From NCBI RefSeq assembly GCF_003999255.1, contig NZ_CP034791.1, positions 1,528,501 through 1,592,500 on the forward strand: DNA of 64,000 bases, written 5' to 3'. Below, in pieces: positions 46,980-52,101 of this stretch. Position numbers and translations under genes: made by a program. The stretch is from Caldicellulosiruptor changbaiensis. GTDB lineage: Bacteria > Bacillota > Thermoanaerobacteria > Caldicellulosiruptorales > Caldicellulosiruptoraceae. The notes under the pieces were generated by a model, which was not told the origin of the DNA, made no database searches, and saw nothing but the letters and a program-made list of their open reading frames with translations. How positions within the stretch are numbered: position 1 is the stretch's first letter; the number at the start of each line of letters is the position of its first letter.

Positions 46980-47356
46980 TTATTCTGTCAATTTCTTTAT
47001 GTCCTCAAACTCTAATTTTAGCCTTTTTATATCTTTATATGAGCTAATCTTTAGCCTAAGCGGCGTATCTTTTATATTTTCTTGTCTCCTTTCCATCTCG
47101 ATACGCCTAAGCTCAACATATCGAATGCCTATTGTAGATGTCCATCTGAATATTGCATCCACTACATCTTCAAGGCTTTCACCTTTCACAATCACACCAA
47201 GCTTATACGCAGGTCTTCCTTTTTTCATATAAATGGGAGTAAAATAGACATCTAATGCACCAGCTTGCATTATCTTATCAAGAGCAAGCGACAGCTCCTC
47301 ACCTGTCATGTCATCAATGTTAGCAAATATTTCAAAGTATTCGCTATCTAAGTTTA
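46980..47356 (-). CDS. larC2: LarC C-terminal part (LarC2), reached by -1 frameshift
   Basis: The C-terminal domain of the nickel-inserting LarC. The first ATG is at 47309, but the frame is open further upstream and joins larC1 at the A-run: LNLDSEYFEIFANIDDMTGEELSLALDKIMQAGALDVYFTPIYMKKGRPAY. The NIDDMTGE block belongs to the family and lies in part before the ATG. Independent initiation at 47309 would therefore lose conserved residues. No good ribosome-binding site precedes that ATG. Last gene of the larE-larB-larC operon. Confidence 0.88.
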
Positions 47357-48091
47357 GTTTTTTTTTCCTATGATTGCTCTTACTACATTAGGAATGGGAA
47401 GATCTTTTGTTCCACTGCCATACCCAATTTTCTCTATCTGCATTCTCGGCATGTTCACAAAACCGTTTGAAATTGTTGCTGCAATCCCTATACCAGTCGG
47501 AGTTATCAGCTCAGTATCAATATCTACAGTTGCAATTGGAATACCATTTTGTCTTGCTATTTCCAAAACGGCAGGTGCCGGCACAGGGATTATTCCATGC
47601 ATTGATTTTGTAAACCCTCTTCCATCAGATAGTGGTGAGAACAAAACCTCTTGAGGCTTTAAATACTCAATACAAAGTGAAAATGCAACAATATCCACAA
47701 TTGAATCGTCAGCGCCTACCTCATGAAATGCAATCTCTTCAATGTCCATACCGTGAACAGTTGCTTCGGCCTTTGCAATCTTTTCAAAAATTCTGATTGA
47801 CAAATCTTTTACAGCTTCTGGCAGCTTACTTTCTTGTAAAAGCTTTTTGATATCTTTAAAGGTTCTATGATGATGGTGAGCATAATCATCGTGATGATGC
47901 TGCAAAACATTTACAACAAAATTTTGGGCTTTAATACCGTTCACCATTTTTTCTTTAAGGTCTATTTCAACATCAAGCCCAAGCAAAGCTATATTTGACT
48001 TTATATACTCAAAATCAACTCCCGCATCAATCAAAGAGCTAACCAGCATATCACCCGCTATTCCAGCTGGTGCATCAAAATAGATAATCAT
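47354..48091 (-). CDS. larC1: LarC N-terminal part (LarC1), nickel-pincer cofactor synthesis
   Basis: LarC inserts nickel into the pyridinium-dithio cofactor, with CTP as co-substrate. FDAPAGIAGDMLVSSLIDAG opens the protein, a His-rich loop (HHHDDYAHHHH, about 65-75) could hold nickel, and FHEVGADDSIVDIVA, PVPAPAVLEIA and TELITPTGIG are family blocks. The frame ends at TAA 47354-47356 directly after AAA-AAC. In Lactobacillus plantarum larC1 and larC2 are joined by programmed frameshift, and the arrangement here looks the same. Confidence 0.92.
   Translation of the reverse strand: MIIYFDAPAGIAGDMLVSSLIDAGVDFEYIKSNIALLGLDVEIDLKEKMVNGIKAQNFVVNVLQHHHDDYAHHHHRTFKDIKKLLQESKLPEAVKDLSIRIFEKIAKAEATVHGMDIEEIAFHEVGADDSIVDIVAFSLCIEYLKPQEVLFSPLSDGRGFTKSMHGIIPVPAPAVLEIARQNGIPIATVDIDTELITPTGIGIAATISNGFVNMPRMQIEKIGYGSGTKDLPIPNVVRAIIGKKN
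47357..47366 (-). other. Slippery A9C run, candidate -1 ribosomal frameshift site
   Basis: On the minus strand nine A and one C directly precede the larC1 stop. This contains the canonical heptamer A-AAA-AAC in the correct zero frame, with TAA next. Slipping back one base leads straight into the larC2 frame. Confidence 0.8.
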
Positions 48092-48120: not shown

Positions 48121-48882
48121 TTACAAATTTCCGTTTGCCAAAGAGTTTATCATATGTGCAACAACTGCCGCACCAAACCCGTTGTCAATGTTGACAACCG
48201 CAACACCATTCGCACACGAGTTTAGCATAGTAAGAAGTGCTGACAGTCCTTTAAAGTTAGCGCCATATCCAACAGATGTTGGCACAGCAATCACAGGTTT
48301 TGACACAAGCCCAGCAACAACAGATGCAAGCGCGCCTTCCATTCCAGCAACTGCTACTATAACATTCGCAGACTGAATCTCATCAAGATGAGAAAATAGC
48401 CTGTGAATTCCTGCAACACCAACATCATATACTCTTTTTACATTATTCCCCAAAATCTCTAAAATAATCGCCGCCTCTTCAGCCACTTTAAGGTCGGCAG
48501 TCCCAGCAGATACTACTGCTACATGGCCTTTGGGGTTCTTCTTTACCTCAACCCTTTTTGCACAGACAATCCTTGCAGCTTCATAATAGTCTATATCTCC
48601 TTTTAGGTTTTCTTTTAAATACTCATAAAGTTCTTTGCTTGCACGCGTACCAATGATATTTACCTCGCCTTTTTCAATCATCCTCTCAAAAATCTTCAAA
48701 ACTTGCTGCTCTGTTTTACCTTCACAAAAAACGACTTCAGACATCCCTTGGCGAATCTTTCTGTGATGGTCTATCTTTGCAAAGTCTATATCTTCAAATG
48801 GAAGTCTGGAAAGTATCTTGAGAGCTTCGTCAATAGATAGTTTATCTTCTTTTACATCTTCTAATATCTTTCTTATATCCAT
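48121..48882 (-). CDS. larB: Nickel-pincer cofactor synthesis protein LarB
   Basis: LarB carboxylates and hydrolyses nicotinic acid adenine dinucleotide, the first step of the pincer cofactor. The C-terminal half is the PurE-like domain (VAVVSAGTADLKVAEEAA, YDVGVAGIHRL, VAVAGMEGALASVVAGLVSKPVIAVPTSVGYGA), and the N-terminal half is LarB-specific. 253 residues. It lies between larE (25 bases) and larC (29 bases) in one operon. Confidence 0.95.
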   Translation of the reverse strand: MDIRKILEDVKEDKLSIDEALKILSRLPFEDIDFAKIDHHRKIRQGMSEVVFCEGKTEQQVLKIFERMIEKGEVNIIGTRASKELYEYLKENLKGDIDYYEAARIVCAKRVEVKKNPKGHVAVVSAGTADLKVAEEAAIILEILGNNVKRVYDVGVAGIHRLFSHLDEIQSANVIVAVAGMEGALASVVAGLVSKPVIAVPTSVGYGANFKGLSALLTMLNSCANGVAVVNIDNGFGAAVVAHMINSLANGNL

Positions 48883-48906
48883 AGCCTTCTCTCCATTTTA
48901 ATCTTT

Positions 48907-49719
48907 TTATTTCTGGTTCATACTTCCCATCCTATAACCAGACAGGTCAAGTGTGACAAACTTAAATCCAAGATCTTTGATTTTGTTTGAAATATCTTTT
49001 ATCAGCTCTAAATCAAAAAATCTTGGAAGCTCCTCAAAATCAACTTCAATTCTGGCAATATCGCCATGGTGCCTAACTCTTACTTGTTTGAAGCCTTTTT
49101 CAAGCAAAATCTCTTCTGCCTTTTCAATCATCTCAAGTTTTTGCAAGGTCACTTGGCTACCATAGGGTATGCGGGTAACTAAACATGCCATTGATGGCTT
49201 ATCAAAAGTAGGAAGACCAAATTCTTTTGACAAAAATCTTATCTCATCCTTGGTAAATCCAATCTCAAATAAAGGACTTTTTATGTTCTCTTCTTCTAAG
49301 GCTTTTCTTCCGGGTCGAAAATCTTTTAAGTCATCTATGTTTGAGCCTTCAACTATTTGGTTTATCTTCAGATCTTCTTTTAACTCTTTCAGTCTTTTTA
49401 TCAAGTCTTTTTTACAATAATAGCACCTGAACATGTCATTTTTTAAAAAATCCTCATTGGCAAATATATCCCTCTCAAGCACAATTAGTTTTGCTCCGAT
49501 AGAACCAGCAAGTTTTTCTGCTTCTTGTTTTTCTCTTTTGGGACTTAAGGCAGAGCTTGAAAAAACAGCAACGCAATTTTCACCCAAAACATCATGGCAT
49601 ACTTTTAATAAAAATGTAGAATCAACTCCCCCTGAAAACGCAACAAGTACGCTCTTGTATGACTGTAAAAGATCTTTTAATTTCTCAAGCTTCTCATAAG
49701 AAAGCTTTGGATCAACCAT
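48907..49719 (-). CDS. larE: Sulfur transferase LarE, three-Cys type
   Basis: An ATP pyrophosphatase that thiolates the cofactor precursor. The PP-loop SGGVDS is at 29-34 in VLVAFSGGVDSTFLL. The L. plantarum enzyme sacrifices a single Cys, here aligned with Cys179 in PSMACLVTRIPYG. This protein additionally has Cys99 and Cys102 (RCYYCK). Three-Cys LarE proteins are thought to carry a [4Fe-4S] cluster and to work catalytically; that reading is inferred from residues. First gene of the operon. No larA (lactate racemase) is in the window. Confidence 0.93.
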   Translation of the reverse strand: MVDPKLSYEKLEKLKDLLQSYKSVLVAFSGGVDSTFLLKVCHDVLGENCVAVFSSSALSPKREKQEAEKLAGSIGAKLIVLERDIFANEDFLKNDMFRCYYCKKDLIKRLKELKEDLKINQIVEGSNIDDLKDFRPGRKALEEENIKSPLFEIGFTKDEIRFLSKEFGLPTFDKPSMACLVTRIPYGSQVTLQKLEMIEKAEEILLEKGFKQVRVRHHGDIARIEVDFEELPRFFDLELIKDISNKIKDLGFKFVTLDLSGYRMGSMNQK

Positions 49720-49736
49720 TATTCAAACCTTCCTTT

Positions 49737-50609
49737 TTATTCTTTATTCAATACAATCGCAAATGTTGCTTTAAAAATATCATTTGGTTTTAAGTAATAG
49801 TACTTGTTTTGAAGATATCCTTCATGCTCTCCCATCCATGGTTCTATGCAAACAAAGTCGTAGTCTCTTAAAGACCACACTACAATGTTTTTAAAGCTTT
49901 TGTCTTTTACAAGCAAAAGCCTTTTGTCCTTGTCAAGAGTAAACTCAATACTATCGCTTCCAACATCAAAAAAATCAAGGTTGATCTCAGGTTTTGAAAA
50001 GTCAAGTTCTTTGAAATTTTCAAGATCGACAAATTTCTTCTCAACATCATCAAAACACTTCTCACAGTCAAGCTTCAATGTAAATTCATCCTTGTTACAC
50101 AGAAAATATGGATGAAACCCTGCATAAAATGGCAATTCTTCGCTGTCGTTGTTCTTTACAATCATCTCAACTCCAAAAATTTCATCGTTTATTGTGTACC
50201 TGATGAAAAGTTCAAAGTCATATGGATAAAATGTCTTTGTAAAGCTATTACTTGAAAGCTTTAATACTACCCCATTTTGAGAAAGTTCATCTATATAGCC
50301 CACAACTTCCCAAGCAGCATCCCGTGCAAATCCATGGTTCTTCATTGGATATTCTTGACCTTTGAATGTAATCTTGCCATCCACAACTCTTCCACATACA
50401 GGAAATAAAATAGGAATTCCGCCTCGGACATTCTTTGTCTTGTCAAACAGCGTCTCTTTGTTAAGATACAGTATGTCCTTGCCACTTAAATTTAGTAAAA
50501 CAACAATTGCACCCCGTTCGGGTGCAACTGTAAAATATGATTTTTTTGTCTTTGAGTATACCTTAATAAATTCCATACCGTTTTCTACATAGCTTTCTAC
50601 AAAATCCAA
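49737..50609 (-). CDS. Aldose 1-epimerase / hexose-6-phosphate epimerase-like protein
   Basis: A galactose-mutarotase-fold enzyme. APERGAIVVLLNLSGKDILYLN, the RGGIPILFPVCGRV block and NHGFARDAAWEVV are typical of the YeaD/Gal-mutarotase group, and FYAGFHPYFLC carries a conserved catalytic His. Its substrate is an aldose or sugar phosphate, not further determined. The frame opens at ATG 50639 inside guaB. TTG 50609 with GGGAGGAAG upstream is the better start. Confidence 0.85.
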   Translation of the reverse strand: MDFVESYVENGMEFIKVYSKTKKSYFTVAPERGAIVVLLNLSGKDILYLNKETLFDKTKNVRGGIPILFPVCGRVVDGKITFKGQEYPMKNHGFARDAAWEVVGYIDELSQNGVVLKLSSNSFTKTFYPYDFELFIRYTINDEIFGVEMIVKNNDSEELPFYAGFHPYFLCNKDEFTLKLDCEKCFDDVEKKFVDLENFKELDFSKPEINLDFFDVGSDSIEFTLDKDKRLLLVKDKSFKNIVVWSLRDYDFVCIEPWMGEHEGYLQNKYYYLKPNDIFKATFAIVLNKE

Positions 50610-50628
50610 GCTTTCTTCCTCCCTTTTT

Positions 50629-52101
<1,473 letters not shown>

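Follow-up and report, generated by a model that had tools for sequence, protein, structure and literature searches.

LarC falls in PF01969, which we take to be the present name of the family formerly called DUF111, and frameshifting in larC of Lactobacillus plantarum is regarded as established, having reportedly been shown experimentally. The larC1-larC2 pair of Lactiplantibacillus plantarum resembles the one that we describe here from Caldicellulosiruptor changbaiensis in needing a -1 shift at the same protein position and in its AAA AAC TAA junction design, but it has A10 rather than A9 at the junction and is followed by larD or larE. A DUF111 cluster of programmed-frameshift genes is also on record, its cassettes showing as much as 39% recoding in E. 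coli (Antonov et al. 2013, PMC3711429). As in that cluster, the C. changbaiensis locus consists of two adjacent ORFs of this one family that meet at a poly-A heptamer, an arrangement kept in orthologues, and it has fused homologues. The main text of PMC3711429 does not mention Caldicellulosiruptor or the alternation, seen here, of shift direction and of fused and split forms, and its reporter recoding concerns other members of the cluster.

Slippage of RNA polymerase at nine A's has been described in two thermophiles. In Clostridium thermocellum, an A9 run gives +1 and -1 transcriptional slippage at about 16% each, and seven A's suffice (PMC6211511). The IS1447 transposase of this thermophilic Firmicute is like larC in that A9 joins two ORFs, but it is a transposase and its +1 nucleotide slippage was shown on cDNA (PMC6211511), while slippage at larC is predicted from DNA. 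The dnaX gene of Thermus thermophilus is closer in being a cellular gene of a thermophile with an A9 run, at which transcriptional slippage leads to a short and a long product (PMC1088944). In dnaX the genomic frame encodes the long product and slippage gives the short one, an arrangement that is reversed in C. changbaiensis larC and matched by those congeners that have A10. Our literature search found no work linking the nickel-pincer nucleotide or lactate racemase to slippage or ribosomal frameshifting. Recoding of larC in PF01969/DUF111 is already known, and C. changbaiensis is a further case; the frameshift idea of the first-pass annotation is not new, as DUF111 frameshifting was published in 2013 (PMC3711429). 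What is added here is a two-way, length-tolerant site, its repeated occurrence at a single boundary between domains, and a natural allelic series that toggles in run length.

The C. changbaiensis locus lies on the minus strand of the window, by which we mean the whole 64-kb stretch of DNA analysed, and its features are as follows, in window coordinates:

48907..49719, minus strand: larE, upstream of larB (NCBIfam TIGR00268 LarE, 317.8 bits)
48121..48882, minus strand: larB, upstream of larC in an operon-like array (NCBIfam NF033503 LarB, 302.7 bits)
47354..48091, minus strand: larC1, the ORF for the N-terminal part of LarC, 245 aa, with a His-rich HHHDDYAHHHH stretch and ending in GKKN-stop
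47358..47366, minus strand: A9 run, the proposed slippage site, 47366-47358 in reading direction and followed by C at 47357
47354..47356, minus strand: TAA stop of larC1, abutting the AAC codon
46980..47357, minus strand: larC2 frame, -1 relative to larC1, 125 codons and a stop, beginning LNLDSEYFEIFANIDDMTGE
47321..47346, minus strand: possible 9-bp hairpin downstream of the A9 run (fold z about -2)
46980..47309, minus strand: the sole ATG-started LarC2 ORF, whose start is inside the conserved NIDDM motif, with the invariant aspartates lost

The two frames correspond to complementary halves of PF01969, in order and on one strand. LarC1 matches PF01969 positions 1-235 and LarC2 positions 245-364, with scores of 278.5 and 125 bits against a curated cut-off of 22.1, and the NCBIfam models agree (TIGR00299 nickel_LarC1, 208 bits; NF052512 nickel_LarC2, 125.5 bits). 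LarC2 also matches the solved C-terminal domain of LarC (PDB 6bwo, E 3e-19). The predicted in-frame fusion has 370 aa and 41.5 kDa, and LarC1 alone 245 aa and 26.8 kDa. The pathway partners larB and larE adjoin larC on the same strand, and the minus-strand order in the 48121-52095 region of the window is an IMP dehydrogenase-like gene, an aldose-epimerase-like gene, larE, larB and larC. The larE-larB-larC array in the window has no larA, and a profile search for LarA (PF09861) gave no match in the C. changbaiensis genome or in 10 of the 11 other congeners; larB, larC and larE are present in the genus, which leaves 11 of the 12 species with a pathway for the nickel-pincer cofactor but no enzyme recognised as its client. 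LarA is the usual company of these genes and not a requirement, as about 15% of larBCE genomes are without larA (PMC11796402).

In the larC1 register, the 3' end of larC1 reads ATC ATA GGA AAA AAA AAC TAA. This confirms the first-pass annotation in its reading of nine A's and a C ahead of the larC1 stop, in register for -1 slippage. It was also right that the -1 frame leads to LarC2, the frame from 47357 (LNLDSEYFEIFANIDDMTGE...) being open until a stop at 46980, but "directly into NIDDMTGE" was loosely put, as 12 linker residues lie between. Two in-frame heptamers of the X_XXY_YYZ type associated with -1 ribosomal frameshifting precede the stop, A_AAA_AAA (47366-47360) and A_AAA_AAC (47363-47357, including the C), and the former is equally possible as a slip site. 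Upstream of NIDDM, the LarC2 frame in the C. changbaiensis genome contains no ATG, GTG or TTG, which rules out a start of LarC2's own there. A working LarC2 from independent initiation is unlikely, because the only ATG sits within NIDDM and the invariant aspartates would be lost.

The run persists across the genus while its length changes. Twelve species were compared, C. changbaiensis included, and each of the 12 orthologues has an unbroken run, while the bases on either side differ; elsewhere in the larC genes of the genus, 64% of Lys codons are AAA. Seven species (C. changbaiensis, G001, G003, G005, G007, G009 and G011) have A9 and a split larC, and three (G002, G004 and G008) have A10 and a continuous one. 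G010, also continuous, has an inserted base after its A9, and G006 has A8, from which the frame would be restored by +1 or -2. G008 carries a second larC copy, continuous and diverged, in which the A-run is interrupted (L014; G008:C1:300659-301768; GGGGAAAAGAAACTA). Among the split congeners, dN/dS of LarC2 is about 0.09, similar to that of LarC1. The first-pass annotation had held that relatives with a continuous larC and another number of A's would speak for an indel. Such relatives exist in the three A10 congeners, whose continuous larC shows, at the level of sequence, that the frame state is labile; decay is not implied, because LarC2 of the split species has a dN/dS of about 0.09 and that of C. 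changbaiensis has no usable start of its own.

In the class, 36 of 37 genomes have larC, and it is broken at the same linker in about 30 of the 36. The phylum sample of 398 genomes, which is part of the phylum and contains related genomes that are not independent samples, has larC in 227, mostly continuous. From class and phylum, 41 adjacent, shifted larC pairs were analysed, and in every one the two frames meet at an unbroken A8-A11 run (A9 in 32, A8 in four, A10 in three and A11 in two), followed by C in 25, G in 11 and T in five. The shift needed is -1 in 34 and +1 in seven, with the directions sometimes mixed within one genus. The A-run in related genomes, to which the first-pass annotation had pointed, is kept as such, while its length and the direction of the shift vary. 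Outside the class, a run of at least eight A's is found in 12 of 12 split against 2 of 62 fused larC genes (Fisher p 4e-12), and the best 80 matches listed, from named loci of many phyla, are all fused with a longest run of seven (0/80 with at least eight). Likewise, none of 22 LarC1 genes without an adjacent LarC2 has a run of at least eight.

Other arrangements occur as well. LarC1 and LarC2 are at separate loci or contigs in nine genomes (G171, G417, G257, G102, G297, G368, G399, G402 and G338), and only LarC1 was seen in four (G278, G173, G052 and G289). Paenibacillus and Niallia have larC1 and larC2 side by side without a run, and their larC2 starts at an ATG of its own, which in Paenibacillus is preceded by AAAGGAGT.

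The tree of LarC requires no fewer than 13 changes to account for the run and 16 to account for the split, so the slippage site, as reconstructed from these sequences, is one that has been gained or lost many times. The tree counts are 34 -1, seven +1 and seven fused with a run. The -1 state is mostly the deep and stable one, with the split persisting through whole genera. A number of the +1 and fused cases sit at the tips of the tree and might reflect errors in sequencing the homopolymer or mutations of very recent date, and some single-genome A8 or A10 cases may likewise be homopolymer sequencing errors. One +1 case is stable, with an A9 run in two species of one genus (G310, L056; G329, L057). 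In both of these species, a His-rich stretch follows the run in the LarC1 frame.

Toggling between split and fused forms is also seen in Lactobacillus larC, which we took from plasmid records of L. plantarum and L. paracasei. The split junction is GAA AAA AAA AAC TAA (A10) and the fused one GAA AAA AAA AAA CTA (A11). Unlike in C. changbaiensis, fused A11 alleles coexist with split ones in L. paracasei, and apart from the run itself the 1450 nt compared are the same in the A10 and A11 copies; megablast gives 99.9% over 1779 nt. Each form occurs in several records, and an effect of sequencing method on run length may contribute.

Apart from the larC run, neither strand of the window has any A9 run, whereas dinucleotide shuffles predict a total of 20.6 (sd 6.8). 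Because of this, and because LarC2 is under strong purifying selection, the run is not due to chance. The genome is a single 2.9-Mb contig and contains AAAAAAAAAC 19 times. Copies within long same-strand reading frames are those in larC, in an FtsK-like gene and near the end of a third frame, and most of the remaining copies look intergenic. The run in the FtsK/SpoIIIE-like gene is an in-frame A9C in a continuous frame (L250 around 701-709; G000:C1:1129558), between the membrane region and the motor domains, where slippage would truncate the protein. The motif CG(A/G)G(A/G/T)TTGACAG comes after several of the A9-A19 tracts in the genome (L244, L251, L254, L255, L257, L258, L259 and L261), and an A-tract just 5' of a TTGACA-like element is possibly a repeated promoter type.

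Recoding of one kind or the other at larC is highly probable. The split larC is, on comparative evidence, functional and not a decayed gene, because about 30 of 36 class genomes are broken at the same linker and the run is present at 41 of 41 split junctions and almost never in fused genes. The purifying selection on LarC2 and the Lactobacillus junction of the same design further bear out the first-pass annotation on this point. Homopolymer errors are common and close relatives have the fused A10 form, as would be expected of decay or sequencing error, but seven congeners share the A9 break, it recurs through most of the class, and LarC2 has a dN/dS of 0.09. We give decay or error practically no weight, and decay itself is ruled out by the conserved break together with the LarC2 dN/dS. 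It might instead be supposed that LarC1 and LarC2 are separate subunits for which fusion is unneeded, since true two-gene forms exist at separate loci in several genomes, and Paenibacillus and Niallia have a larC2 with its own ATG and no run, in Paenibacillus also with AAAGGAGT. This is very improbable for C. changbaiensis, where the LarC2 frame is without a start upstream of NIDDM and has its only ATG inside the motif, and it leaves the run in all 41 adjacent, shifted cases unexplained. A further alternative places the slippage in replication, with a hypermutable tract, a sequenced clone that happens to be out of frame, and populations in which split and fused alleles coexist through phase variation or a transient mutation. 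Run length does vary among the congeners (A8, A9 and A10), among Thermoanaerobacter-like species, and between the A10 and A11 plasmids of L. paracasei. Even so, the genomic state is far from random, the split persists through genera while LarC2 is under purifying selection, and phase variation leaves the stable -1 majority unexplained, which makes this alternative improbable, if less so than separate subunits.

We propose that larC is one gene, whose two domains would be joined by slippage at the poly(A) run. RNA polymerase would slip on A9 to give mRNAs with 8, 9, 10 or more A's, of which the A9 mRNA would encode LarC1 (26.8 kDa) and the A10 mRNA (or A7) would restore the frame for full-length LarC (41.5 kDa), the predicted enzyme for CTP-dependent nickel insertion in the synthesis of the nickel-pincer nucleotide. 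Ribosomes may contribute as well, by slipping -1 within this run at A_AAA_AAA or A_AAA_AAC. The predicted junction peptide is NLNLDSEYFEIFANIDDMTGEELSLALDK, with the Asn kept, for ribosomal slippage at A_AAA_AAC, and Lys followed by LNLDSEYF... for an A10 mRNA or slippage at A_AAA_AAA. Changes of run length in the DNA (A8, A9, A10) would be tolerated, because slippage makes all lengths, and fused and split forms could for that reason alternate among close relatives while LarC2 is kept.

That RNA polymerase is the main agent at the larC run seems to us probable. Run length, direction and next base all vary while the run itself stays; the runs are never shorter than eight, when a ribosomal heptamer needs six or seven A's; and the genus lacks a conserved stimulatory hairpin. 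The avoidance of A9 elsewhere in the window (1 vs 20.6) is as expected of slippery runs (PMC1088944), and there is an A9 precedent in thermophilic C. thermocellum (PMC6211511). By the criterion of Antonov et al., orthologues that use both shift directions point to transcriptional realignment (PMC3711429), and larC orthologues do use both (34 -1, 7 +1). The run of about nine or more A/T expected for such realignment is likewise seen, with A9 here, A9-A11 in 37 of the 41 and A8 in four, and the conserved direction expected for -1 ribosomal frameshifting is not (34 -1, 7 +1, 7 fused with a run). Several observations pull against polymerase slippage, however. Two-way slippage by polymerase alone does not predict the -1 bias (34/41), which -1 ribosomal slippage does, and the two-way evidence is weakened because several +1 and fused cases are tips, with one stable +1 case (G310, G329). 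Published accounts of the DUF111 reporter tests in E. coli speak of ribosomal frameshifting, although a protein reporter cannot separate polymerase from ribosomal slippage, and a hairpin with z of about -2 lies about 10 nt 3' of the run in the C. changbaiensis genome.

Some of these observations favour programmed -1 ribosomal frameshifting, in which two tRNAs would slip back at either heptamer, A_AAA_AAC or A_AAA_AAA, and part of the ribosomes would continue into LarC2 while the mRNA stays A9. The heptamer is valid and in frame, a stop follows immediately 3', most split larC genes need -1, and DUF111 cassettes reach 39% frameshifting in E. coli. Against it stand the orthologues that require +1, the lack of runs below eight, the lack of preference for AAG after the run, and a hairpin with 2 of 9 pairs broken in 8 of 12 species and no covariation, for which we dropped a conserved 3' hairpin or pseudoknot as a candidate. 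A_AAA_AAC is, moreover, canonical for eukaryotic retroviruses, and it is weak in E. coli compared with A_AAA_AAG. We thus consider -1 ribosomal frameshifting rather unlikely as the explanation, and the "canonical -1 slippery heptamer" of the first-pass annotation too specific for a site with runs of at least eight A's followed by C, G or T, with some orthologues that need +1 and with a hairpin that is not conserved.

A broader picture can also be drawn, which we offer tentatively and regard as possible but somewhat doubtful. The slippage site would have arisen repeatedly at one LarC domain boundary, in many Bacillota lineages, where polymerase slippage would supply LarC1 and full-length LarC and buffer run-length mutation. 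The DNA could then toggle between fused and split forms, even in near-identical plasmids, with little functional effect, and LarC1 alone may have its own role, for example in holding nickel or tuning cofactor output. The A8, A9, A10 and A11 alleles with near-identical flanks form a natural series for separating transcriptional from ribosomal slippage, a question that is general to many poly-A recoding genes. Across a whole class of thermophilic anaerobes, the two annotated fragments of larC very probably make up a single working gene, and the nickel-pincer pathway of the class is, judging by these sequences, very probably intact. Differences in run length between strains at such sites need not signal pseudogenes.
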